DNA from: a virus
DNA: 45,505 nt
Reading direction: 5' to 3' (one strand)
IMG/VR virus record: IMGVR_UViG_3300005647_000011
Span: 1 to 45,505 of that record
Positions 1 to 45,505 of this stretch are shown here, in pieces. Numbering within the stretch: position 1 is the first letter of the stretch; the number at the start of each line of letters is the position of its first letter. Position numbers and translations under genes: made by a program. The notes beneath the pieces were generated by a model. The model had not been told where the DNA came from. It searched no databases and saw only the letters and a list, made by a program, of their open reading frames with translations.

Positions 1-998
1 CCGCCAATGCCGTACTTATGATGTGGCTTGTATGTGTCCCACACCTTCACCAATCCATCCATCTTGAGTTGGTCAGCAGCCAATTTGATAGCCCTATCCA
101 CCAATACACGATTGAAAAAAGCATCTTGCGCCTTGGATGGGTCACATAGGTAGTCACCTTCCCAGTCATCAGCATCATCTTTAATCTTTGCAATCTTCTC
201 CGGGGTATTCTTACTCCATGTAGATTTGCCGTCTGCATCAATGATGGGTGTGATATGTGTGACAATCGTTTTCTTTTGTTTAAACCATTCGATTGAGCCT
301 TGGTCTGATATGTAGTTGGCTGTCACTACATATGAACCGTCATCACTCATACCTTGAATAGCCTCATCACATTTCGCCACGATAGACTCCGTTTGAACCA
401 ATGATCTGATAGTCTCGCTATCCTCAATGTCCTCAAACCACAACCAATCCGGGCGAAACTCTGCCTGTGCGTGGCCACGTTGTCGCTGTCCGACTGTACC
501 GCCAAGGTACTTTACGCCGTTTTGCATGGTAAAGGACTTCATTGTTTCCTCACGTTTCTTGCCATCTCCACCGTCAAAGGCATTTCCATAGATACCCTCC
601 ACCTCAACAATGAGGTTGTAGACATCTGTTACGATCTGCTTTGAGTTCTGAATATCGCTTGTGAGTACCTTAATGTAGTGTCTACGGTCTTTTCTACCGT
701 CATTGAGCAATACATAAGCATCAAACAATTTCTTTATCGTTGTCTTAGCGCATCCTCGAAAGCCAATATTCAAGTAATTCTCTTCTCCAAGGTATGATTT
801 TATGTAATGCACGATCATCTCTTTATGAAATGGTGCACTCTCATGCTTGAAATAGTTAGGAAAATTACCCCTAACGAAATATTGAAACTTTTTGTAAATG
901 CGCTCTATGCTATCCTCTCCATCAAAGCCATAAAGTTTTTTCTTTTCTTGATTACTGCCGTATTTGATAATATTTTTGATCTCCTTTTTTGCGTCCAT
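1..998 (-). CDS. terL: Terminase large subunit, N-terminal ATPase half (runs off window start)
   Basis: This is the motor ATPase that pumps phage DNA into the prohead. I translated it from the ATG at 998, nine bases after the terS stop, and it stays open for 332 codons to base 3. A Walker A-like loop of the terminase RG-x-AK-T type (GFRGCAKTT) lies at residues 79-87. A hydrophobic Walker B strand ending in acidic residues (WLWFEDIED) lies at about 185-193. The last residues, HKYGIGG, look like the first strand of the RNase H-type nuclease domain, where the catalytic Asp would follow. The rest of that domain is at 45505-44946. Joining the ends directly leaves the frame wrong, so a few bases are probably missing at the junction. 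The start is preceded by GATACCACG, with no Shine-Dalgarno sequence. Confidence 0.9.
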   Translation of the reverse strand, partial: MDAKKEIKNIIKYGSNQEKKKLYGFDGEDSIERIYKKFQYFVRGNFPNYFKHESAPFHKEMIVHYIKSYLGEENYLNIGFRGCAKTTIKKLFDAYVLLNDGRKDRRHYIKVLTSDIQNSKQIVTDVYNLIVEVEGIYGNAFDGGDGKKREETMKSFTMQNGVKYLGGTVGQRQRGHAQAEFRPDWLWFEDIEDSETIRSLVQTESIVAKCDEAIQGMSDDGSYVVTANYISDQGSIEWFKQKKTIVTHITPIIDADGKSTWSKNTPEKIAKIKDDADDWEGDYLCDPSKAQDAFFNRVLVDRAIKLAADQLKMDGLVKVWDTYKPHHKYGIG

Positions 999-1007
999 CG
1001 TGGTATC

Positions 1008-1511
1008 TTAGTCAGTCATCTTGTCGATTGCATCATCAATCTCACCTTCACGTTCCTTGGTCAATGCGACTGCGCCAGAGTGTTTTACTGCTAGAGTGTC
1101 GCCGTAACCCATACTCTTGCCCTGCGTCTTTGCAACAAACTTTGCTGTGTCCTGCGCCAACTTCCGGTCTGCCTTATAGTCATCAAGCGTGTCCTCTAGC
1201 ACTTGCTCTGCCTTATCCAGTAGACGTGTCCTGCGCTCCATCGCGGTCTGAAACCACTCCGGGTTTTCATACGTTATCTGGTCTGCATACTCCTCTGAGA
1301 ACCCTGCTGCGATAGCGCTACCACGCGCATTTCCAAAGGTTTCACTCTGAGGATTGAGATATAACGACAAAAACTCTACTTGCCGGGGGCTTAGTAGCTT
1401 CTCCGGTGGGCTCTCTTTGACGGCCTTTTTAGCTGCCTTTTTTACCACCTTTTTAGCTACCTTTTTACGCGTAGCCTTTTTCTTTACTTTTCTTACTATT
1501 CTTTTTGCCAT
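1008..1511 (-). CDS. terS: Terminase small subunit
   Basis: Recognises phage DNA and recruits the large subunit for packaging. The core at residues about 40-85 reads LSPRQVEFLSLYLNPQSETF, then NARGSAIAAGFSEEYA. That is the helix-turn-helix pattern of small terminases ('plants' of the SPRQ..FL..Y and A..AGFSE..A type). The first 34 residues are almost entirely Lys, Arg, Ala and Val in KKxxxKK repeats, like a histone H1 tail, and probably bind DNA non-specifically. The gene is first in the late operon, directly after the promoter and attenuator-like leader at 1520-1655, and terL follows after nine bases. The start codon sits behind an A/T-rich leader without a Shine-Dalgarno. Assignment rests on the core pattern and position. 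Confidence 0.85.
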   Translation of the reverse strand: MAKRIVRKVKKKATRKKVAKKVVKKAAKKAVKESPPEKLLSPRQVEFLSLYLNPQSETFGNARGSAIAAGFSEEYADQITYENPEWFQTAMERRTRLLDKAEQVLEDTLDDYKADRKLAQDTAKFVAKTQGKSMGYGDTLAVKHSGAVALTKEREGEIDDAIDKMTD

Positions 1512-1519
1512 TTTGAAAT

Positions 1520-1566
1520 AAAAAAAAGCAACCAGATGTCGCGATATACTCGCGTTATCTGATTGC
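1520..1566 (-). terminator. Intrinsic terminator hairpin inside the terS leader
   Basis: Ten-pair stem (one G-U) between 1557-1566 and 1528-1537, with an inner CGCG/CGCG pairing, followed on the minus strand by a run of eight T just before the terS start at 1511. Placed after a promoter and before the first gene, it looks like a conditional terminator. Confidence 0.75.
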
Positions 1567-1620
1567 TTATTTTTCGGATGTCAGCAATGGGTAGATTATG
1601 TGCTACCTCACTATTCAATT
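1520..1620 (-). ncRNA. Attenuator-like structured leader, copy 1 (upstream of terS)
   Basis: On the minus strand the transcript from the promoter at 1627-1655 would fold in order into: a stem GGTAG/CTACC (1603-1607 with 1590-1594); a stem AGCAAT.../ATTGCT type (1583-1588 with 1562-1567); and a terminator hairpin GCAATCAGAT/ATCTGGTTGC (1557-1566 with 1528-1537) followed by eight U (1520-1527). The second stem and the terminator share bases 1562-1566, so only one can form. A matching leader lies at 24838-24940; both keep GAATAG-y-GA, TTGCTGACA-y-CCGAAAAA and AAGCAA. I do not recognise a known riboswitch class. It could be a ligand or protein controlled attenuator or a put-like antitermination RNA. 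Confidence 0.7.
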
Positions 1621-1626
1621 AACATT

Positions 1627-1655
1627 ATTATAGCACATAAGCCAACCCACAACAA
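1627..1655 (-). promoter_or_regulatory. Sigma70 promoter with extended -10 for the late (terS) operon
   Basis: On the minus strand: TTGTTG (1655-1650), a 17-base spacer, then TATAAT (1632-1627), with TGC directly before it giving TGnTATAAT. The expected start of transcription is near 1620, about 110 bases before terS. Confidence 0.75.
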
Positions 1656-6851: not shown

Positions 6852-8156
6852 TTAAATCGCATCCACTTGCTCCATGACTCCTGTGCTGCCAAGAAAATCA
6901 AGATCAACACTTCCACGCCTCCCATGCCTATTCTTTTTGACATGGCAATCAAGACGTACCGCTTCACCTGCTGCCTGTTGCCTTTCAAATACTTCCGGCT
7001 CTTCCACTGCCGATAGCTCAATGGCCAAGTCTGCTGCTGCTGCGATGCCACCAGACCCCTTGAAACCCATAAGCTGCCGGCTACCATTCTTTGCTTGCTC
7101 ATTACTCACCTGTGACAAAACAATGATCGGTACTTGTAATTGCTTCGCGACATTCTGCAATCGTGTGATCGCAACGGTTGTCGTTTCATACTCTCCACGC
7201 GCATCTTTGACGTTTGCTAGTTGCAAAAAGTCTATGAAAAATAGATCAACCGGTTTTCTCATCATCTGGTTTTGCATTTCAATCACGATAGCCTCAAGAT
7301 TATTTTCTCGCTCATAAACCTCTGTCTCTGCAAGGATGAAATCATCCTTAGCAGCTTGTATTTCTTTCAACTCCTCCGGCGTACCTCCTGCTTTACGTAC
7401 CTTGTACATTGACGTATTTGCCATGATGCCAATTAAGCGTCCAAGAATATCTGTGCTTGTCATCTCTAGTGAGAAAAATACACATCTCTTACCCTGTCTG
7501 ATTGCATTGCCTAGTATGTTCAAACTAAAAGCTGTCTTACCTGTGTTGGTATATCCGCCAATGACCCATAGATGGCTTTTTCTAATACCATCTATCGCGC
7601 CATCAAGTTTTGAATACCCTGTAGAAATGCCGTGTATTTTTTGCCCTGCTGCCATGCGCTCTTGATATTCTTTCTCAAGAACCTCATACGCTTGCACGAC
7701 TGACTGCGCATCTGTTTTCTCATCTGTGCCTACTGACTCCGAGACCGCCAACACTTCACCTTGTGCTCTCTCGATAAGCTCCTGCGACTCGACTGTTACA
7801 TCCTGTGCAATTTCGTTTATGTTTTGCGCTGCTACTTGCAACCTTCTTTGGGTGGCTATCTTTTTCACCAACTTGGCGTAGTACCCAACATTGCTTGCTG
7901 ATACAACTGCTGCAAAACAATCTGCGATAAATGATGCCGGGACGTGTGGTACTTTTTCACTCAAGATCAACACGTCAATAGCAGATTGTGCATCAAACAA
8001 CTCCTCGATACCCTTGTACAATTCTTTGTAGTGTCCATCCGGGAGATCATCACTTGACATGATGTGTCGCACCAACGGTATCTGCTTGTTGTCCAAGATC
8101 AATGAGCCTATGATATTTCTCTGGTATTCAATTTCTGCATTTTGATTTTCGCTCAT
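6852..8156 (-). CDS. dnaB: Replicative DNA helicase, DnaB family
   Basis: Hexameric helicase that unwinds DNA at the replication fork. Its 434 residues match the family. The N-terminal helical domain (1-100) is followed by a linker and a RecA-like motor. Walker A is GGYTNTGKT (200-208). FFSLEM (227-232) is the usual H1a region. Walker B is VDLFFIDFLQL (303-313). VLSQVSNEQ (346-354) and GSGGIAAAADL (367-377) are the H3 and H4 regions, and a basic KNRHGRRG end follows. Its start overlaps the stop of the initiator gene by four bases, the usual loader-helicase pairing in phages. Confidence 0.95.
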   Translation of the reverse strand: MSENQNAEIEYQRNIIGSLILDNKQIPLVRHIMSSDDLPDGHYKELYKGIEELFDAQSAIDVLILSEKVPHVPASFIADCFAAVVSASNVGYYAKLVKKIATQRRLQVAAQNINEIAQDVTVESQELIERAQGEVLAVSESVGTDEKTDAQSVVQAYEVLEKEYQERMAAGQKIHGISTGYSKLDGAIDGIRKSHLWVIGGYTNTGKTAFSLNILGNAIRQGKRCVFFSLEMTSTDILGRLIGIMANTSMYKVRKAGGTPEELKEIQAAKDDFILAETEVYERENNLEAIVIEMQNQMMRKPVDLFFIDFLQLANVKDARGEYETTTVAITRLQNVAKQLQVPIIVLSQVSNEQAKNGSRQLMGFKGSGGIAAAADLAIELSAVEEPEVFERQQAAGEAVRLDCHVKKNRHGRRGSVDLDFLGSTGVMEQVDAI

Positions 8157-8875
8157 AAACGTACTTTGTTATCCTCTACCTCTTCACGTTCTGGGAAATC
8201 CTTATCAAGTGCGTTTCTGAGAAATGCTTTGTAGTTTTTGTATTTCCTACCCTTTGCCTCACAATATGTGTGTAGCTGCTCTGCCTTTTTCACAACCTGT
8301 TTTTGTGTCGCAACAAACTTGAGTGTAAAAATCTCAACATCCTCTGATGGCACGGCAAGCAAATATGCGCGGCTCTTGAAAAGCGGAATATCCTTTTTAC
8401 TCTCAATGGGGGCAACCCGAGAAAGAGACTCCGCCTTTTCTTCCCTCTCTCTATCCTTACCTAACCTAACCTTACCTATACTGGGTTGCCGTGTGGTTGC
8501 CATGTGGTTGCCATGTGGTTTCAGCCCTTTATTTAAGCTATATTTCTTCGTTTCACCGTCAATTTCTAGTTGGTTCATCTCATCTACCCACTGTGTCTTG
8601 GTGTACCTATCTTTGCGTATGAGGTTGTGGATTAACCAATGCTTTATTACGCATACACCAGACTCAAATTCCATGAGATAACGCTTTGCCATCAAGACTT
8701 TATAATCGTCCGGGGACGCTCCTATCATCTTGAGAATTGTCTTTGGCTTCGCTATGAAACCGTCATCATCAGCCCTTAACATTAAGTGGAAATATAGTGC
8801 CTGTGTGCTGCTTGGCATTTCCATAAATATGTCAGTGTCGATGATCTTGTCACTCATCATTCTTCTCTGTGCCAT
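8153..8875 (-). CDS. Phage replication initiator / helicase loader
   Basis: The start, MAQRRMMSDKIIDTDIFMEM then STQALYFHLMLRADDDGF, is the well-known N-terminal winged-helix signature of phage replisome organisers (O- or DnaD-like). A hydrophilic linker at about 100-165 contains repeats of small polar residues. A C-terminal domain (KVVKKAEQLHTYCEAKGRKY...) probably contacts helicase. It is directly upstream of dnaB and overlaps it by four bases. A strong hairpin lies 15 bases before its start (8891-8963). If the origin lies in this gene, as in lambda O, the codons 8430-8530 with three near-identical GGTTGCC(A/G)TGTGGTT units are the place to look. Confidence 0.85.
   Translation of the reverse strand: MAQRRMMSDKIIDTDIFMEMPSSTQALYFHLMLRADDDGFIAKPKTILKMIGASPDDYKVLMAKRYLMEFESGVCVIKHWLIHNLIRKDRYTKTQWVDEMNQLEIDGETKKYSLNKGLKPHGNHMATTRQPSIGKVRLGKDREREEKAESLSRVAPIESKKDIPLFKSRAYLLAVPSEDVEIFTLKFVATQKQVVKKAEQLHTYCEAKGRKYKNYKAFLRNALDKDFPEREEVEDNKVRL
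8478..8523. repeat. Short tandem repeat inside the initiator gene, possible origin iterons
   Basis: The sequence has three closely spaced copies of GGTTGCC(G/A)TGTGGTT-like units (gggttgccgtgtggttgccatgtggttgccatgtggtttc). In lambda and its relatives, the iterons bound by the O protein sit inside the O gene, so these may be the origin. The repeat also encodes part of the linker (PHGNHMATTRQP), so it could instead be a slipped coding repeat. Confidence 0.45.
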
Positions 8876-13032: not shown

Positions 13033-13239
13033 TTAAAATTCTGTTACCTCTACGTTTTGACATGCGGGGCATGGGTCAATATCAACTCCAAGGCTAAAGA
13101 TTGATGCTGATACGTTTGTTACTTCACCGCTACCGCCACACACATCACACGTTGCCTCTTCCTCTTGCATTTGTAGGTCATATACAAAGTCCATAAATGC
13201 CTCTCTTCCTGTTATGAGGGGGCATTTGATTGCTTCCAT
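13033..13239 (-). CDS. Small zinc-ribbon protein, DnaJ-finger-like
   Basis: First gene of the early operon. 68 residues with two CxxC pairs, CDVCGGSGEV at 31-40 and CPAC at 57-60, spaced like half of a DnaJ zinc finger. A small helical N-terminus (REAFMDFVYDLQMQEEE) precedes them. Many phages encode such fingers near early promoters; function unknown. Confidence 0.65.
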   Translation of the reverse strand: MEAIKCPLITGREAFMDFVYDLQMQEEEATCDVCGGSGEVTNVSASIFSLGVDIDPCPACQNVEVTEF

Positions 13240-16864: not shown

Positions 16865-17033
16865 GACTTTTTATTTTATACGTCTTATATGCGTTCACTC
16901 CCATATTTCCTATCGCTCCTATCGCAACACCCGCGCTGAATATCAAAAACTGAAACCAGTGTGTCTCGATATAACCAAGTATTCCTGCAAGGAAAAGTGC
17001 AATGCCATTTGTCTTTGTGTAAATATCAATCAT
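16842..17033 (-). CDS. Holin-like small membrane protein, 63 residues
   Basis: Two hydrophobic helices (about 8-25 and 28-46) and a basic tail (YKTYKIKSHGSKQRS), as in class II holins. Its ATG overlaps the endolysin stop by four bases (ATGA), so it is translated with the endolysin. It could be a holin or an antiholin. Confidence 0.6.
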   Translation of the reverse strand: MIDIYTKTNGIALFLAGILGYIETHWFQFLIFSAGVAIGAIGNMGVNAYKTYKIKSHGSKQRS

Positions 17034-17653
17034 ATTTTTGACTTAATACTTTTCACTGAGCGCTCAATGTCGTCAAGATCTTTGGTTATGTCAATGGTAT
17101 CTTCCCCCACGATAAGTGACGGCATAGATGGCAACCCTGCACTTACAAGGTATGGCAACATCTCGATACTCCCAGAATAGCCATTATTCATATCCGGGTT
17201 GTTAGGCTTTCCGCCCCAGTGCAAATGCGGTGCGCTTGAGTCGCCGGTGTTATCAGTTAGTGCAATGACCTCCCCTGCTTTCACTGTGTCGCCTTCCGTA
17301 ATGTACAACTCTTCAAGGTGGCCATACGTAACTGTGAGCCCCACTTTTGGATAGTAGAGACGCAACATGTGGCCATATCCGGCCTTGCCTTTAATGGCTT
17401 CCGCGACACGTCCATCACACTGCGCATGTACAAAGATGTGGCCGTTGAGTGTATCTTCGTTTACAAGCACACCATCAATAACAGTTGATGCTTCTTGGTA
17501 ATACTCTGTGCTCTTAGGGTTGCGATCTGTGAAGCGTGTGCGGTTATCAATGCCATTATGACCAACCATGCCATACTTTGCGTAGTAAGAATTTTTACCA
17601 AACTTTTGTGTGGTTCGTATTTTTCTCAGTGGGTAATAGTCAAATTGTTCCAT
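17030..17653 (-). CDS. Endolysin, M23 zinc metallopeptidase
   Basis: Cuts peptide bonds in peptidoglycan at lysis. It is 207 residues long. The M23 zinc and catalytic residues are visible: H32 and D36 in GHNGID, H112 in YGHLEE, and H143 and H145 in SAPHLHW. No signal peptide is present, so it needs a holin to cross the membrane. A C-terminal segment after about residue 165 has no known fold. It is flanked on both sides by membrane proteins, a normal lysis cassette. Confidence 0.9.
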   Translation of the reverse strand: MEQFDYYPLRKIRTTQKFGKNSYYAKYGMVGHNGIDNRTRFTDRNPKSTEYYQEASTVIDGVLVNEDTLNGHIFVHAQCDGRVAEAIKGKAGYGHMLRLYYPKVGLTVTYGHLEELYITEGDTVKAGEVIALTDNTGDSSAPHLHWGGKPNNPDMNNGYSGSIEMLPYLVSAGLPSMPSLIVGEDTIDITKDLDDIERSVKSIKSKI

Positions 17654-17662
17654 ATGTTTTTG

Positions 17663-18148
17663 TTATCCCAATTTAGGCGCGTCTTTTGCATCAACATCAT
17701 GGTCAATACCATTGTTGCCACGCTCAAAGCTCTCTGGCGTCCCATAACTAACACTAGTAATGTTGTCGTTTATATGTGGATTTTTAAAGGCGCTTGTCAC
17801 ATCATCCATTTCTGCTGATGTTTCCATAGGCTTAATCGGCATAAACTTTGCATCGTTCTTATCAGACTTCATCCATTTTTGATACACGATCTGTGAGACT
17901 GTGAATACTGATGTCGCACTTGCAATGATGTCCTGCAAACTCGCAAATGTCAGTGATACGCCGTGTGTAACCACCGCAATGAGTGCACCAATCACCACTG
18001 AAAATGTAACGGCCACTGCAAAGCGTGCATCTGACTCATTGATTTTGTACTTGTGTACGATAAGCCCAACGATCTTTGGGGCTACTGTTCCTGTAAGAAA
18101 CGAGAACCCAAGCATGAACATTGCTGTTGACTCTGGTGTTAATTCCAT
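17663..18148 (-). CDS. Holin candidate, 161 residues with three membrane helices
   Basis: Hydrophobic segments at about residues 8-27, 45-62 and 65-90 and a long polar C-terminal tail (about 95-161) of Lys, Asp and Asn. It is immediately upstream of the M23 endolysin, the usual holin position, and downstream of the tail protein. Its length is above that of most class I holins, so it could also be another membrane protein of the lysis set. Confidence 0.6.
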   Translation of the reverse strand: MELTPESTAMFMLGFSFLTGTVAPKIVGLIVHKYKINESDARFAVAVTFSVVIGALIAVVTHGVSLTFASLQDIIASATSVFTVSQIVYQKWMKSDKNDAKFMPIKPMETSAEMDDVTSAFKNPHINDNITSVSYGTPESFERGNNGIDHDVDAKDAPKLG

Positions 18149-18164
18149 ATGTATATATTAGAGA

Positions 18165-21100
18165 TTAAAAGTCTATCTTATTGCCATCTGTACCTACTTT
18201 GAATTGTGCAAAGCGTAGGTATGTAGTCTTTGATGGACTCCATGAGCTATCACCGCCACCGTAAAATGTGCTCAATGTCATTTCAGTAACATCCCAGTCG
18301 CTACCAGATGCAATAAATTGGTGATTTTGTAGATCAATTTTCTTGACTCCATTGATATAAATAACAAGTGAGCCATCATTATTGCCCGGTGTACCTACAT
18401 TGAGATGGTGTGTAATGGTTGTCCATTTGTCTGGCTCAACATATACACCAGTATCAAAGTACTCACCCCAGTAATTAGGCTGATTGAGATGATACATGTA
18501 CAACTTAATCTGTTTGTCGCTGCCATCTGTATTTGCTTTCCACATCATGCGCGCCGTCATACCTTGCCCCGGTGTAGCACCTCCTGTTGGTGTGTCTCCA
18601 CCGCCCGGGCCGGGTAGCTTACCGCCACGTGAGTATTCAAACCCCGGCATAAACTTAAATTTGTACGATGTCCACACTTCTTTATGTGAGCCACCAATAA
18701 ACCACGGCGCAAGAATATGGTTAGAGCCGCCTGATGATGGTATCAACCTACACTCAAGTACATTGCCCTCCTGTGGGTCTGCAACAATCGCGCAATCCTG
18801 TGTGCCGTTAGGTGTGTAGTCAGCACCGTGAGGGCTGTAAGCAGCCATCTCTTGACCAGAAATTTGACCATACGCCTTCTGAGACTTCTTTGTGAAATCA
18901 ATGTGCAAAATATCTGGTGTATTACCATCCGTGCCGGCAACTACTGCACCACCTGTACCAGTATCACCGCTACCATTGCCACCTTGTACTCCGTCAATTT
19001 GACAATTCTCACGCGTAATTTCATAAGTGAATTGTGGCTCATCGTCATAGTGCGCAGCCATCGCATCAAACGTCTCATCATCATTTGTGATGCCATCGTT
19101 ATTTTTATCAAAGTATTGGTGTGACTCCCATACAATATTGTCGTCATCAATCCACGGGCCATTCGGGTGATGCTCCGGGGCGCTGTACGCTCCAGACCAC
19201 TGTGCTGTAGGTACATAGATCAATCCTGTGTAGCTGTTGTTGCGTAAGTGGTTGACGATAGATGTGCTCATGCCCTCCCATGTTTGACCTTGCTGCAAAG
19301 CAGATTGTCCAGTGTTGGGAAATACCTGCGATGGCTCATTCATAATGTCGATACCATGAAAACATGTGTAGCCCTTAATTTCATTTACAATATTAAGAAT
19401 TTGCGCATTACAATTTGCCTGTGTCCAACCTTGGCCAAGGCGCTGCGTTGCAAAAGGTGGTGTTGCACCTGTAATAAATGCACCATAGTTGTGGATGTCC
19501 ACAAGTACACGCACACTTGGGCTCACATTTTGTGCAAAGGTTAGTACGTCCTTTAGCCTATTCATTTCTAGTGGCTCAAAAGTTGTATCTGTTTGTGATG
19601 TGTAAAACTTCTCAAGTCGTACCGGTACACGTATAAATGTTAAACCTCTGTCATAGTGAAATTGCAAAAGAGCCTGTGATGGATAGCGGTTTTTATCTGA
19701 GGTATAATTGTCCTCCCATTCGTTCGTAAAGTTGTTTGCACTATGTACTGAGCTCGGGCCATCTGGTGCAAAACCAAACTCTGCGCCTGCCGTGTTAGAG
19801 CCTCGCAAATAATCTAGCGTTGTGACGTTAGCTTCATTTCCGTATGGGTTGTTTGTCTCAATAAATGGCTCTTCATTCCAACGTGGCGTGACAAAACTTC
19901 CTGAGTCATCATGGATAGAGTATGCGTATGAGCCCCAAAATTCACCTGTCGCCCATAGTGTCGCTTCAATCTTCCAGTTATTCCATATAGCAAATACTTT
20001 GTTGGTCATTCTAATCCACTTTGCACGATCTGCCGGTGGTATATCATTGTCCTTACCTTCAAAGGGGGTGTTCGCAAAAGCCCACGGTACACCAAACTCG
20101 CCAATCAAACCTTTTTTACCATTGAGCCAATCAACCCATTCTTTCGCAACACGCATTGCTCGCGCTTCCAGTGCATTTTCAGAAGTGATAACTCCACATG
20201 TTGGCAATCCACCGCCACCACCAGAGCCGCCGGTGTATGTGAAAGATCCTTGTCCTGCAAATCCGGATGCGTCATTTACTTCTTGCTGATATGTGCGTCC
20301 TGCAAAATTTCCAATGTGTGACTTCTCCGGGTAATAATGACCTTGATACACAATGTGGTTTCCTCCAAGTGGGTCATTTATCCAAGGGCCCCCACCATGC
20401 CTAAAGTTCAAGTCCTGTACACCAGAGTAATTGCCAAGTGGCACTGTGATGTCGCCTGTGTAACCAATCGTGCTACCACGCAATACATTGACAATGTTTT
20501 GTGAGATTGTTTCCCATTCGTTTGAGTCAACTTGTGATGGCTCATTGCATATATCAAGCATGAAAAGAGCTGGGTGATTTTTCAGTTGTACGTAGTTTCC
20601 ATTCGCATCATTAAACCCATGATTGCAAAGTGCCGTCATGTATTTAATGTAGTCGTTGTAGCCCTGTGTTGTTGCAAGTGTATTACCACCAATCTTTGCG
20701 TAGTTGCCACCGCCTGTGCCGGGATGTAGATAGTCAAGGATGATCTTAGTGCCATCTTTCTGTGCCTCATTAAGCACTCTTTCTACATGTAAGATAAGAC
20801 TTTCACCCTCAAATGTTCCAAAAGAGTCAGTGTTTACATTCCATATGTTGACATTCTGATTGTTTTCACCAATCGCATATCGCTGAACCGTAGCACCCTT
20901 TTCTCGAAAAAACTTAAAGTCGCTTGCCAGTGGCGCTTTAGATGCAAGCGTATTAACTGAAACAAACTCTTGTCCTGCATAAGCGTTACCTGTAAATGGT
21001 ACATCCCTATCTCCAAGGTTCGTATCAAGTGCTGCTGCTATCGCTGTTGGTGTCCAATTACCACCTGCTGCACCATTCTTCACCTCATGTGTAGATAGAT

Positions 21101-23006
21101 TGTAGCTTGCTCCCTGTTCATTATTCCAAAGATGGCTGTTGCTCCAATACGTCCAACCAATATTATCTGCCTTACACCGTAGTGCAATACAGTTAGCAAC
21201 ACCAATCCACTTCTCAATGTCTCCACGGTCTCGCGGTATACCCCATTCACCAAGATAAAGCCTCACGTCCGGACTGCCAGCCCATGCACGAAAACGTCCA
21301 AGCTCTGCGGAAACCATTGCTAGGAAGTTATCTGCCGGTGTGTATGTTGTCTCTACACCCTGTTCTGCTGTTGTGTCACCCTCCTCATTTGAGTATGCGC
21401 TTTCACCTACTGAATTGTAAGATTTAATTCTGTATGTATAGAGAACGCCCGGGTCTAAATTACTGTCTGTATATGTCGCCGTGCTCGCGCTCCCTGCGAC
21501 AATGATACTATCAATCTCAACGAAAGAACCTGTACCAATTTTTCTTTCAATCTTAAAGTTACTTTCTGTATTTCTCTCCCAAGAAAGACTTGCAAAGTTC
21601 GTACCAACACTTGAGATAGAAAGCGCTGTTGGCGCGCTTGGTGCTACCTCTGCCCCTGTAGACCGTAGCTCAACTGCTGCCATAACCCAATTTGAGTCAC
21701 CTGTAAATGACCATGACAATGTGTTAGCACCTGTTGTTGCAACTGCCTTATATGCTGCGCTCGACTGTCCAAGGTTCGCATCCGGGTTCGTCTTGTTGTA
21801 TGTTTCAATTCCATCGGTTGTAGAAATTTCTCTATCCTCCTGCACGTTTACCGCGTGTACAATCACTGAGTCATCCTTAGATGTTGTAAGACTTAAGGAC
21901 GGACTCGCTCCATAATTAGCATCTGAGTTTGTCACTCCAAAAGATGACACTTTATCAAATGTCTCTGCTGATATATTAAATAGCTTGTAATCAGATGCTT
22001 CAACACTGATAACCTTATCAGCTCCTTGTGGTGGATTAAGCAATCCAAAAATAATTACACCAGCTTGATTTGCTGTATGCTCTCGCACAAGCTCCACAAG
22101 GGGTGTTGCGTCAACTGTTGCGCCTGTAACCGCATCAACATCACGTGAGTAAACTTCAACAATAAGACAATTTTCAAAAATGTCGCGAGTAATCGTTGGG
22201 TTGTTTGTGTAGCCAAACTCACTGCCAGATGATGTACCCGGGACTGTTTCACCAGATACCGCAAGTGTAGTAGTTGCTGAAATCTCATCAGTGTACTCAG
22301 AATATCCGCCGTCATTCTTTGAACGTAGGCGATATGTATACTCTGTATCATCAGTTAATCCTTGGTCTGTGTAGCTGTAGCCAACTGCTGTAACAGCATC
22401 TGTAGTAGTAAATACCTCCTCAAAACTTCCTGCGCCGGCTTTTCTCTCAAGGTGATAGCTTGTAACACCAAGTGCTTCATTCTTCCACGTGAGTGCAAGT
22501 TCATTTTCTGAGCCAATATTTGCTGCCGTAAGCTCATATGGTGGATTAAATGGTGGCGTTGTTGTTGTAATAACTGCCTCATCTGTATAGCCAGAATTAC
22601 CGGTAGCGTTCTTTGCGCGCACACGGTATATGTATGACGTTCCTGCTGCAAGCAATGTATCAGTATAGCTCTCAACATTATTTGATACCTCCGCAATCAC
22701 AGAAAAATCATCATAACCAGACCTACGCTCAATCAAAACACCACTAGAATTTGAGCCATCATCTGTATTGCTCCATGCCAAACTGCTCTGAGTGTCACTG
22801 ATAACCTCTACAGTAAGGCCAGTAGGGGCTTCCGGCACAATGTTTTGTCCGGTCTGTCCTACAATAGTTTCTGATTTTAACCCTTGAAATGTTGACATAT
22901 CCTCTTCTAGCTTAATTACTCGCTTCTCAATACTCTCCACTGCTTCATCCTTCTTGTCTGACTCTTCAAAGTATCTGACAAGTAGATCGACCAATTTTTC
23001 ACTCAT
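18165..23006 (-). CDS. Giant tail protein: coiled coil, FN3, GH5 pieces, PL14-like lyase
   Basis: 1613 residues. Residues 1-45 form a charged coiled coil, likely for trimerisation or attachment. FN3 domains lie at about 57-150, 152-250 and 455-548 (each with the Y-T-Y-R-x-R/K pattern), and a beta-sandwich at 255-450. A C-terminal GH5 piece follows (558-650; nucleophile E587 in LGEWG, GWTYWS). Then a complete GH5 (670-1050; CNEPS with E822, IGEFG with E970). Then an N-terminal GH5 piece (about 1075-1310; IRVPVR, IHNYGAF, MNEPS with E1224, SHQYFD) that stops before its nucleophile strand. A Gly-rich linker leads to a C-terminal PL14-type lyase-like domain (1365-1613; GGKLPGPGGG, IYINGVK, STFYGGG). 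It probably binds and cuts host polysaccharides. Confidence 0.85.
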   Translation of the reverse strand: MSEKLVDLLVRYFEESDKKDEAVESIEKRVIKLEEDMSTFQGLKSETIVGQTGQNIVPEAPTGLTVEVISDTQSSLAWSNTDDGSNSSGVLIERRSGYDDFSVIAEVSNNVESYTDTLLAAGTSYIYRVRAKNATGNSGYTDEAVITTTTPPFNPPYELTAANIGSENELALTWKNEALGVTSYHLERKAGAGSFEEVFTTTDAVTAVGYSYTDQGLTDDTEYTYRLRSKNDGGYSEYTDEISATTTLAVSGETVPGTSSGSEFGYTNNPTITRDIFENCLIVEVYSRDVDAVTGATVDATPLVELVREHTANQAGVIIFGLLNPPQGADKVISVEASDYKLFNISAETFDKVSSFGVTNSDANYGASPSLSLTTSKDDSVIVHAVNVQEDREISTTDGIETYNKTNPDANLGQSSAAYKAVATTGANTLSWSFTGDSNWVMAAVELRSTGAEVAPSAPTALSISSVGTNFASLSWERNTESNFKIERKIGTGSFVEIDSIIVAGSASTATYTDSNLDPGVLYTYRIKSYNSVGESAYSNEEGDTTAEQGVETTYTPADNFLAMVSAELGRFRAWAGSPDVRLYLGEWGIPRDRGDIEKWIGVANCIALRCKADNIGWTYWSNSHLWNNEQGASYNLSTHEVKNGAAGGNWTPTAIAAALDTNLGDRDVPFTGNAYAGQEFVSVNTLASKAPLASDFKFFREKGATVQRYAIGENNQNVNIWNVNTDSFGTFEGESLILHVERVLNEAQKDGTKIILDYLHPGTGGGNYAKIGGNTLATTQGYNDYIKYMTALCNHGFNDANGNYVQLKNHPALFMLDICNEPSQVDSNEWETISQNIVNVLRGSTIGYTGDITVPLGNYSGVQDLNFRHGGGPWINDPLGGNHIVYQGHYYPEKSHIGNFAGRTYQQEVNDASGFAGQGSFTYTGGSGGGGGLPTCGVITSENALEARAMRVAKEWVDWLNGKKGLIGEFGVPWAFANTPFEGKDNDIPPADRAKWIRMTNKVFAIWNNWKIEATLWATGEFWGSYAYSIHDDSGSFVTPRWNEEPFIETNNPYGNEANVTTLDYLRGSNTAGAEFGFAPDGPSSVHSANNFTNEWEDNYTSDKNRYPSQALLQFHYDRGLTFIRVPVRLEKFYTSQTDTTFEPLEMNRLKDVLTFAQNVSPSVRVLVDIHNYGAFITGATPPFATQRLGQGWTQANCNAQILNIVNEIKGYTCFHGIDIMNEPSQVFPNTGQSALQQGQTWEGMSTSIVNHLRNNSYTGLIYVPTAQWSGAYSAPEHHPNGPWIDDDNIVWESHQYFDKNNDGITNDDETFDAMAAHYDDEPQFTYEITRENCQIDGVQGGNGSGDTGTGGAVVAGTDGNTPDILHIDFTKKSQKAYGQISGQEMAAYSPHGADYTPNGTQDCAIVADPQEGNVLECRLIPSSGGSNHILAPWFIGGSHKEVWTSYKFKFMPGFEYSRGGKLPGPGGGDTPTGGATPGQGMTARMMWKANTDGSDKQIKLYMYHLNQPNYWGEYFDTGVYVEPDKWTTITHHLNVGTPGNNDGSLVIYINGVKKIDLQNHQFIASGSDWDVTEMTLSTFYGGGDSSWSPSKTTYLRFAQFKVGTDGNKIDF

Positions 23007-23023
23007 AATTTTTTGCTAGTTTA

Positions 23024-24481
23024 TTAGCTGAGCTTTAAAGTTCCACCATCGCTATATAGTGTGTCGGGGTCTAATCCTGTAGCAGATGTTGGTATTTCGT
23101 GAAATGTTAGCGACCCATCATCATTTGCGTTAAATGGTTTTTTCATGTCATTTTCTGTAACCTCTCGTATTTTTATGTCATCAATGTATGCGGTACATGA
23201 CTCAGACGCACTACTACTTCTAAACCTAAAATATTCCACGCCAGTACTTGACGCTGTAACCTCTACTCGTAGCTCTTGCCATTCTGGGTCAGTTGGAAAG
23301 CTGCCTGATGTAGATAGCCGTGCTGCATTACTTGAGAAAAATAGTGTGCCAGATGTTGTCTTTACACGCATAAATACCTCATAAACCTTTCCGCTTGTAA
23401 CAGAGAAAGCCGGTGACATATACATCTGATTTGCGTATGTGTTGTTTTGTGAGTACAACTTGCGTGAGTGTGAGCCTTGATATACTTCTTCAGTGCTTTG
23501 CTCATTGATGTCGCCAGAGGCCGGTGTAGACCAATTCGCATCATTCTCTTGATCGCCATTTATTTGCAGATTACCTAGCAACTTGTTTTCTGCTTCATAT
23601 ACTTTTGAAACAGTCTTGTATTGGACATCGACATTAAAAAGGCTGAGTGATAGACAACCCTCATCAACAATGTTTTGTTTACCATTTCCTGCGTCGTAAG
23701 AGGCTGCAATAAAGCCACCAAAGACATTGATTGAGCGTGTATTTTTCCCAACCTTGATACCTTGGTCATTGAGCTCAAGATATGGTGAGAAAATATTTAT
23801 ATCAAAAGAGTCATCTTTAATATGTATGCCAGTCTTTGCGTGCGCTTCTACATTTACATTTATCAATGAAATAGAGTGTGATGCTTCAATCACAACTCCC
23901 TCTGTAGTACCAGAGCCGGCTGTAATATTTGCCGGCTTGATACGCGTACCAATAACGCGCATATCATTAGCAACATCTTTAAATTTGATTCCGTAGCTAC
24001 CCACTCCATCAGCATCAACTAGTGGATTTGTTATCTCGTTGTAATATGTGTCAAGTTTTTTGCCATCCACCAGAAATCCACCAATAACATTTCGCGCATC
24101 ACAATTATTAAACTTCGAGTGTGCCAAGCCTTCCAACTTAAAACCAACGCCCATGTGTGTAGCGTTTGTATTTTCTACAACAACATTGTCGAGTACTAAG
24201 TTAGATAGTGGTGTATAAGGGTCTGAACCATTGATAATAGGTGTGTCAAACAATGCCGCATCCCATAAAATCTTGCTTGATCTTCCAAAGTTAAAAATCG
24301 CTTGATTTGAAAATTTAAGTAAAGCTGGGGTTGTAAGTGTGAGATCACTTATGAGAGCTATGTCTTTGCCAGTGTTTAATGCGTCTTGTAAATTTGTGTA
24401 ATCCGCACCAAAGTTGCCAACTGTTACGTATGGCTTTGCACCAGCTTCACTACTACCAAGGTTTAATATCCGTATTCCCAT
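23024..24481 (-). CDS. Tailspike, right-handed beta-helix with C-terminal carbohydrate-binding domain
   Basis: 485 residues. A short N-terminal region (1-25) is followed by about 270 residues of parallel beta-helix, seen in repeating Asn/Val/Ile-rich turns such as LVLDNVVVENTNATHMGVGF. A beta-sandwich at about 310-440 resembles carbohydrate-binding modules (WSTPASGDINEQS..., then VSGKVYEVFMRVKT). The C-terminus ends GLDPDTLYSDGGTLKLS, a pattern typical of tail-fibre tips. It probably recognises the cell-surface glycan. The N-terminal motif GIRILNLGSSEAGAKPYVTV would attach it to the tail. It starts ten bases after the small protein upstream. Confidence 0.85.
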   Translation of the reverse strand: MGIRILNLGSSEAGAKPYVTVGNFGADYTNLQDALNTGKDIALISDLTLTTPALLKFSNQAIFNFGRSSKILWDAALFDTPIINGSDPYTPLSNLVLDNVVVENTNATHMGVGFKLEGLAHSKFNNCDARNVIGGFLVDGKKLDTYYNEITNPLVDADGVGSYGIKFKDVANDMRVIGTRIKPANITAGSGTTEGVVIEASHSISLINVNVEAHAKTGIHIKDDSFDINIFSPYLELNDQGIKVGKNTRSINVFGGFIAASYDAGNGKQNIVDEGCLSLSLFNVDVQYKTVSKVYEAENKLLGNLQINGDQENDANWSTPASGDINEQSTEEVYQGSHSRKLYSQNNTYANQMYMSPAFSVTSGKVYEVFMRVKTTSGTLFFSSNAARLSTSGSFPTDPEWQELRVEVTASSTGVEYFRFRSSSASESCTAYIDDIKIREVTENDMKKPFNANDDGSLTFHEIPTSATGLDPDTLYSDGGTLKLS

Positions 24482-24490
24482 ATAAATAAT

Positions 24491-24820
24491 TTATGCAATT
24501 TGTAGTCTCGCGGTTGTATTCGATGGAGCAATAAATGATATTGTTCGCCAGTTGATGGACTCATGTATATCAATTTCTACAGTTGCTCCGGCAGCAACTT
24601 TTATAGAACCTGTAGCATTTGCATCTACAGCATTACCATTTGCATCAATGCCAGATTCAAAATAAAGCTCACTATCAGCCTGTAAGACAATGCTTGGCGT
24701 AGCACCATTTACGCCACCACCTTTTGCGCCAAGCGTGTTCAAAAACTCACCTAGTTTTGTACCGTCACCGCTCAAGATAGTCTCCAAAGACTGTGGACTT
24801 GTTGTTATAGAAATCTGCAT
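24491..24820 (-). CDS. Small virion protein of the tail-fibre operon, 109 residues
   Basis: Beta-rich, with no membrane segment and a glycine-rich loop (GAKGGGVNGATPS). It is the first gene of the tail-fibre operon, after the second attenuator-like leader, and directly precedes the tailspike. It probably joins the tailspike or the GH5 protein to the tail, or caps a fibre. No family recognised. The start follows the terminator U run and an AT-rich spacer, with no Shine-Dalgarno. Confidence 0.6.
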   Translation of the reverse strand: MQISITTSPQSLETILSGDGTKLGEFLNTLGAKGGGVNGATPSIVLQADSELYFESGIDANGNAVDANATGSIKVAAGATVEIDIHESINWRTISFIAPSNTTARLQIA

Positions 24821-24837: not shown

Positions 24838-24885
24838 AAAAAAAAGCAACCAAACCTTGCATCCGGAGATACTTTGTTTGGTTGC
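24838..24885 (-). terminator. Intrinsic terminator hairpin inside the tail-fibre leader
   Basis: Perfect ten-pair stem GCAACCAAAC/GTTTGGTTGC with a 20-base loop, then eight T on the minus strand, 18 bases before the first gene of the operon at 24820. Confidence 0.85.
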
Positions 24886-24940
24886 TTGTTTTTCGGGTGT
24901 CAGCAACGGTCTCTATAAGGCGGAGACTTCGCTATTCAAT
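24838..24940 (-). ncRNA. Attenuator-like structured leader, copy 2 (upstream of tail-fibre operon)
   Basis: Same design as the terS leader. In order on the minus strand: stem GTCTC/GAGAC (24923-24927 with 24909-24913); stem AGCAAC/GTTGCT (24902-24907 with 24881-24886); and terminator GCAACCAAAC/GTTTGGTTGC (24876-24885 with 24846-24855) followed by eight U (24838-24845). Copy 1 uses AGCAAT/ATTGCT and GCAATCAGAT/ATCTGGTTGC, so the pairs change together while the structure stays. The shared core TTGCTGACA-y-CCGAAAAA-y-AAGCAA is unpaired or loops between the stems. Confidence 0.7.
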
Positions 24941-24947
24941 TACTAGA

Positions 24948-24975
24948 ATTATAGCATTATTTCTTATTTTTGCAA
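24948..24975 (-). promoter_or_regulatory. Sigma70 promoter with extended -10 for the tail-fibre operon
   Basis: On the minus strand: TTGCAA (24975-24970), a 16-base spacer, then TATAAT (24953-24948), with TGC directly before (TGnTATAAT). The -10 and the bases around it match those of the terS promoter (GCTATAAT). Confidence 0.7.
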
Positions 24976-24980
24976 AACAA

Positions 24981-25004
24981 AAAACAGCCTTATATAGCTG
25001 TTTT
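24981..25004 (-). terminator. Bidirectional intrinsic terminator after the two-gene membrane cassette
   Basis: Stem AAAACAGC/GCTGTTTT (24981-24988 with 24997-25004), followed by A/T runs on both sides. It ends transcripts of the genes at 25346 and 25508, just upstream of the tail-fibre promoter. Confidence 0.8.
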
Positions 25005-35148: not shown

Positions 35149-35157
35149 ATTATACCA
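35149..35157 (-). promoter_or_regulatory. Internal extended -10 promoter (TGGTATAAT)
   Basis: On the minus strand TGGTATAAT is an exact extended -10 (35157-35149). No clear -35 is seen. It would let the internal virion genes be expressed separately from the head genes. Confidence 0.6.
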
Positions 35158-44945: not shown

Positions 44946-45505
44946 TTAATAATTTGATGCTCTACGATGTAATGCGTTCTTTACTCTGCGTACTCTACGC
45001 TTCTTTCTCTCTGGTTTTTTGTATGATTGAGACCTTGCTTGCCACCCGATAATTCCCGAGGTTAGCAAATCAAAGTGTCTGGTCAGTATTCCCTTGGTTT
45101 TACCTGCAAAATCAGTCTGTGTAAACGCTCTCATCTCCTGTAAAAATTCAATATCATAAATGGTGATGTTGCCGTCCTCAAAGTCTTTCTTAAATCCATA
45201 CCACGCTTCATGCTTTGTGCGACTTGTTGTGCGCCATCCCAACTTATCTGTTTGCTTGTCTGCTGTTTTCTCGATCTCCACTTGCCTATAGATGTTGGGG
45301 TAACTCTCAGACTTCAATGCTGCTACAGTCGCGTGTCCAGTGTTATTCACTTCCGGGGCTAAGATACATGAGCCATAGTTATTCCCCAGTCGCATCATCT
45401 CGTAACCAAATAAGTCTGGTGCAACGTCTGCGCTGTAGTATGTGCCGATCAGTGCACTCTTGGTGTAGTCAAAGAGTGATAGCGCATTTGCATCCCTTCC
45501 CTCAC
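44946..45505 (-). CDS. terL: Terminase large subunit, C-terminal nuclease half (runs off window end)
   Basis: The open frame from the stop at 44946 continues to base 45503, giving 185 residues. It opens EGRDANALSLFDYTK, which is the strand-loop after the first catalytic Asp of the RNase H-type terminase nuclease. Later come GSCILAPEVNNTGHATV (catalytic Glu) and RHFDLLTSGIIGWQA (catalytic Asp). The very C-terminus is strongly basic (KKPERKKRRVRRVKNALHRR). Together with 998-1 this makes about 520 residues, a normal terminase. The frames do not join directly: the gap must be 2, 5, 8... bases (or a one-base overlap, which would remove the expected Asp). Confidence 0.88.
   Translation of the reverse strand, partial: EGRDANALSLFDYTKSALIGTYYSADVAPDLFGYEMMRLGNNYGSCILAPEVNNTGHATVAALKSESYPNIYRQVEIEKTADKQTDKLGWRTTSRTKHEAWYGFKKDFEDGNITIYDIEFLQEMRAFTQTDFAGKTKGILTRHFDLLTSGIIGWQARSQSYKKPERKKRRVRRVKNALHRRASNY

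Follow-up and report, generated by a model that had tools for sequence, protein, structure and literature searches.

Two leaders at the heads of two late units

The window, that is the whole stretch of 45,505 nucleotides of IMG/VR record IMGVR_UViG_3300005647_000011, has nearly all of its genes on the minus strand, as are the two elements analysed here, copy 1 (1520-1635) before terS and copy 2 (24838-24956) before a fibre/depolymerase/lysis unit. The terL gene is split across the contig ends, with its N-terminal part at 1-1001 (minus strand; PHROG 38, E=6.5e-19; 55% to the relative L003) and its C-terminal part at 44946-45505, the contig end, where identity to the corresponding part of L003 TerL is 38%. 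From this split, which the original prediction did not note, we infer that the record represents a nearly complete phage genome in circularly permuted form, with a few bases missing at the joint, and since terL wraps the contig ends, each copy of the element heads one late unit. Late unit 1 starts at copy 1, contains terS (1008-1511, minus strand; PHROG 51, E=1.3e-7), terL and the portal, capsid and tail genes, and closes with a terminator at 25004-24981 (minus strand), directly upstream of copy 2. Late unit 2 (17030-24820, minus strand) begins after copy 2 with two genes to which no function was assigned (24491-24820, 109 aa, and 23024-24481, 485 aa), followed by a 1613-aa tail protein with fn3, GH5 cellulase and PL14 matches (18165-23006), which is probably a polysaccharide-degrading fibre, a gene at 17663-18148 and an M23 peptidase (17030-17653), all on the minus strand. 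Across 52 gene starts in the window, almost none is preceded by a Shine-Dalgarno sequence, the upstream positions being A-rich instead.

Both copies contain the same parts in the same order and with nearly equal spacing: a -10 box, a first hairpin, a core, a terminator and a U8 tract, so that the promoter, leader and terminator originally described before terS, and their second occurrence at the fibre operon, are all present on the minus strand. The extended -10 box TGCTATAAT is identical in the two copies (1627-1635 and 24948-24956), with transcription likely to start near 1620 and near 24941, respectively. In copy 1 it is followed by segment 1 (TAGTGA, 1608-1613), a short hairpin at 1590-1607 (GGTAG 1607-1603 with CTACC 1594-1590) and the core ATTGCTGACATCCGAAAAATAAGCAAT (1562-1588), which comprises segments 2 and 3 and forms the proposed antiterminator hairpin, with arms ATTGCT (1588-1583) and AGCAAT (1567-1562) around a conserved 15-nt loop. 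The intrinsic terminator hairpin (1526-1568, -23.7 kcal/mol) has a 12-bp stem with arms AAGCAATCAGAT (1568-1557) and ATCTGGTTGCTT (1537-1526) and an inner hairpin, and its U8 tract (1520-1527) ends 8 nt before the terS ATG at 1511. The corresponding parts of copy 2 are segment 1 (TAGCGA, 24929-24934), a short hairpin at 24909-24927 (GTCTC 24927-24923 with GAGAC 24913-24909), the core GTTGCTGACACCCGAAAAACAAGCAAC (24881-24907) with antiterminator arms GTTGCT (24907-24902) and AGCAAC (24886-24881), the intrinsic terminator (24844-24887, arms 24887-24876 and 24855-24844, -22.0 kcal/mol) and a U8 tract (24838-24845) whose end is 17 nt from the ATG at 24820.

The proposal that one signal serves two late units is supported by the likeness of the leaders at both heads: a blastn search of copy 1 against the window returned copy 2 at E=2e-13, the next match having E=0.09. 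The common core reads TTGCTGACAyCCGAAAAAyAAGCAA; the core TTGCTGACAnCCGAAAAAnAAGCAA occurs exactly twice in the window, and allowing up to three mismatches in the core adds no further site (0 expected from shuffles). From the -10 box downstream the copies are about 71% identical, whereas upstream of it they agree at 18 of 65 positions, which is the background level of unrelated DNA. Because the copies are alike solely from the -10 box down, their common control should lie in the transcribed part; an upstream activator site shared by both is thus unlikely, and control after initiation is the likely arrangement.

No canonical terminator on the coding strand is stronger than the two in the leaders, each of which has a U8 tract, and the gaps of 8 and 17 bases between these tracts and the first ATG are too short to hold a promoter, so late transcripts from upstream must pass the terminator. 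A scan for extended -10 boxes and two-hexamer promoters found no other convincing promoter in the late units; an extended -10 box TGGTATAAT at 35149-35157, upstream of a late gene, was rejected as it overlaps a start codon. Judged from this arrangement, both late units are likely to be controlled by read-through.

Other units of the genome were also inspected. In the integrase unit (14887-14698, minus strand) an extended -10 box is followed by a leader and by a terminator (14737-14706) that lies 8 nt upstream of the ATG; the motif CGGTTC (14795-14790) is complementary to the 5' arm of the terminator, with p=0.03 by pairing length and 0.32 by duplex energy. The early unit (13535-13239, minus strand) has an extended -10 box, a structured leader of about 200 nt and a terminator (13339-13313), and there TCTAGTG (13435-13429) repeats the 3' arm of the terminator (p=0.08). 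Four units of the phage may thus start with a promoter, a leader and a terminator.

Competing stems and paired changes

The leader RNA contains four segments able to pair: 1 (UAGyGA), 2 (UUGCUG), 3 (AAGCAA) and 4 (UUGCUU). State A combines 1:2, formed around the short stem, with 3:4, the terminator; in the copy 1 folds, segment 1 pairs with TTGCTG at 1587-1582. State B is the 2:3 hairpin, which has 6 bp and a loop of 15 nt and to which 1:4 may be added. The stems 2:3 and 3:4 have bases 1562-1567 in common in copy 1 and 24881-24886 in copy 2, so that the mutual exclusion predicted for them holds at both copies; segment 1 (1613-1608 in copy 1) had been missed, and competes with the antiterminator for TTGCTG. 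The general mark of an attenuator, mutually exclusive terminator and antiterminator stems, is therefore present, with a weak antiterminator.

Compared with shuffled sequences the leaders fold with z-scores of -5.5 and -5.2, mostly owing to the terminators. Folding of the growing transcript gives the short stem first, with or without 1:2; once segment 3 emerges, 2:3 and 1:2 have nearly equal energy, and once segment 4 emerges the terminator wins. Forcing the 2:3 state with no helper costs 10-13 kcal/mol relative to the best fold. Since the terminator is favoured by this amount, termination would be the default and State B would need a helper, and for the same reason a switch made of RNA only is unlikely. 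The suggestion of a switch or antitermination RNA is partly supported: control of read-through is likely, a switch that operates unaided is not. The complementarity of the leader to the 5' arm of the terminator, tested against shuffles, gave p=0.11 by pairing length and 0.20 by duplex energy for copy 1, and 0.018 and 0.005, respectively, for copy 2; it is suggestive of the 2:3 stem, not proof of it.

Between the copies, none of the stems is broken by a change. With the short stems aligned to each other and read directly, four of the five pairs are changed on both sides; the terminator stem has paired changes at 2 of 12 positions plus one wobble, the 2:3 antiterminator stem at 1 of 6, and in copy 2 the 1:2 pairing shows one change from wobble to pair. 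The single double change in 2:3 turns A-U into G-C while the partner base in the terminator stays G, and is therefore not explained by the terminator, but it is one event. The core stays unpaired when the terminator forms and has nonetheless been kept, while the hairpin loops have diverged. The paired stem changes noticed originally are therefore real, but they do not carry the weight of covariation as evidence for a switch: with two copies in one genome, one paired change in the antiterminator and no homologue in the databases searched, phylogenetic covariation is not demonstrable.

Relatives of the leader and of the phage

The exact core is absent from 2.9 million viral contigs (IMG/VR) and from GTDB genomes. 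Relaxed core patterns gave chance matches alone, which lay for the most part within coding sequence and in no case had the flanking layout, and one core match, in the locus L004, was likewise put down to chance, lying inside a coding sequence. The covariance model search that had been proposed was run with a model (R1) on the TerL-relative loci and 380 CPR genomes, and returned no true match and no further copy; four weak matches lacked the terminator or the layout and correspond to the number expected by chance over the 380 CPR genomes. A DNA search of INPHARED yielded short matches only, to the terminator or A-T-rich parts or to the -10 region. No Rfam 15 family scored above its gathering threshold, in keeping with the original remark that no known class has this core. 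Searches for close relatives through a 911-aa protein and through the 109-aa protein after copy 2 found none.

Of the relatives whose terS region is complete, L003 (TerL 55%) is the nearest. Its terS is preceded (L003:8958-9086) by an extended -10 box and a terminator, with a leader between them whose stems may compete; the sequence is unrelated, and this supports a conserved layout, not homology. A second extended -10 box (9078) between the L003 terminator and terS counts against the favoured reading described below, since it could bypass the terminator there. The relative L005/L028 has just 52 bp before its terS, and no terminator in it.

Two CPR MAG loci, L020 and L021 (26% TerL identity), carry a different leader before a 446-aa gene and were not counted as homologous. 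It consists of a hairpin, GGGyGGGCUAAGACCCCrUCC, with one paired change, and a terminator (L020:7950-8156, L021:4450-4678); the 446-aa gene lies upstream of the distant terL, and LOOT RNAs occur nearby on the other strand. Among known phages TerL has distant matches only. These distant TerL matches hint at a CPR host, but the DnaD-like helicase loader (8153-8875, minus strand) is 43% identical to the loaders of streptococcal phages.

Mechanism and comparison with known systems

We favour, at a probability of roughly 0.55, the reading that the two elements are paralogous 5' leaders heading both late transcription units of one phage genome, one for packaging, head and tail and the other for fibre, depolymerase and lysis, and that they act as late-operon antitermination leaders, probably needing a trans factor from the phage or the host. 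Both promoters would fire without a dedicated upstream activator, transcription would halt by default at the leader terminator, with UAGyGA:UUGCUG and the terminator formed, and read-through would switch the late genes on. With less certainty, an early phage protein or a host factor would recognise the core GACAyCCGAAAAAyA in the loop that UUGCU and AGCAA enclose, and would stabilise the 2:3 hairpin, which takes the 5' arm of the terminator. The copy 1 terminator would in addition shield late unit 1 from early transcription coming from upstream.

Among the window proteins scanned, none was recognised as an antiterminator. The early region encodes many small proteins without a family, of which two small zinc-ribbon-like ones are suggestively placed: the early unit has as its first gene one (13033-13239) with a weak match to the DnaJ zinc domain/Anti-TRAP, and directly before copy 1, at about 1700-1791, there is a 30-aa frame. 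To name either of these as the trans factor would be speculation.

The layout is fitted about as well by a processive (Q-like or put-like) leader as by an attenuator switch. In such a system RNA polymerase would be modified to ignore terminators here and further on, either by the leader RNA or by a Q/N-like protein that loads at the promoter or on the leader, and the 2:3 stem would be irrelevant. The terminator lies about 100 nt after the start, as in the Q-dependent lambda pR'/tR' leader, and the first hairpin (1:2 and the short stem) has paired changes; two similar copies just after two promoters also recall putL and putR of HK022 (PMC9378689). However, the core overlaps the arm of the local terminator exactly, for which a processive system has no need, the second of the two stem-loops that make up put is weak here, and the scanned window proteins include no recognised Q- or N-like protein, so that we consider processive antitermination possible but rather unlikely. 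Between the two modes, the coincidence of the conserved core with the antiterminator hairpin leads us to prefer local action, by stabilising 2:3, at about two to one.

That the terminators are plain, partly leaky insulators, which exclude early transcription and set late expression by constant leakage, the core being kept since the duplication is recent, agrees with the position of copy 1 at the end of the early region, where no other strong terminator lies between 1874 and 1632, and with the A-run beside the terminator, typical of two-way terminators. It is nevertheless improbable: the terminator is downstream of the promoter, not upstream, copy 2 already has a separate terminator before it (24981-25004), and recency alone is insufficient where the short-stem and terminator-loop sequences have fully diverged and the unpaired core has not. 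We find it still harder to credit that the elements are stand-alone small RNA genes, whose terminated RNAs of about 100 nt act in trans while the late genes are read from elsewhere. A promoter, a structured RNA and a terminator do make a complete small-RNA gene, and the second -10 box of L003 follows its terminator, but the absence of room for a promoter in the gaps means that terS and the fibre unit are transcribed through the terminator, and such genes would have no need to sit at both late heads. A metabolite-binding riboswitch of a class not previously described would account for the conserved unpaired core with alternating stems and for the lack of an Rfam match; it is unsupported, and we rate it as very improbable, since the leaders control no metabolic gene, have some 15 conserved loop bases with no further conserved junction, and have an exact core without a homologue in the viral contigs or GTDB genomes.

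Returning to the favoured antitermination leader, a bolder version of it, which we hold to be doubtful, would make the leaders a new class of phage antitermination RNA, in which one recognition hairpin overlapping a terminator is used on two late operons and worked by a phage factor and in which, as the integrase and early units also seem to begin with promoter, leader and terminator, the whole lytic programme would be timed by read-through. If the favoured reading is true, the late genes of this uncultured phage are timed by read-through at two matched leaders, not by promoter activation; the leader itself is a 110-base part suited to reporter testing.

In lambda, the late promoter pR' is followed by a short leader and the terminator tR', and the late genes need read-through, which depends on Q; such a leader is marked by a DNA site that Q binds and by a sigma-dependent pause at the promoter. 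The present leaders share this order of late promoter, short leader and terminator, but differ in having two copies for two late units, a core that overlaps the terminator arm and no recognised Q homologue; given that there is no upstream likeness (18/65), a Q site common to both would be confined to the stretch from the -10 box to the leader. As in the RAT antiterminators of BglG and LicT, which need protein, a hairpin with a conserved core has bases in common with the 5' arm of the terminator. By eye, the leaders show no RAT consensus, and no BglG-family gene was found among the window proteins scanned. Like trp- and pyr-type attenuators, the leaders have four segments that pair either as 1:2 and 3:4 or as 2:3. 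Coupling to a leader peptide through the ribosome was rejected, as no leader frame is kept in both copies: read directly, the TTG frame is open for more than 30 codons in copy 1 and for 8 codons in copy 2, and the TTGCTG frame stays open in copy 2 but closes after 6 codons in copy 1. The targets of ANTAR proteins (EutV, NasR, AmiR) consist of two hairpins with hexanucleotide loops bearing A at position 1 and G at position 4 (PMC3369931); here too there are two small hairpins in a row, of which the second overlaps the terminator, but with loops of 8/9 nt and 15 nt, which rules out an ANTAR target RNA. The put RNAs of HK022 are two adjacent stem-loops of about 70 nt that act directly on RNA polymerase, in early operons and at distant terminators (PMC9378689). 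Both systems have two similar leader RNAs near two phage promoters; in the comparison with INPHARED no sequence likeness of our leaders to any phage record was found, and here it is the first, composite hairpin that folds, while the second (2:3) is a weak hairpin that the terminator outcompetes. The leaders would work like an attenuator or antiterminator leader and, if the favoured reading holds, would provide a compact RNA recognition site unlike those of RAT, ANTAR or put, and a second means of gating a late regulon, alongside Q.
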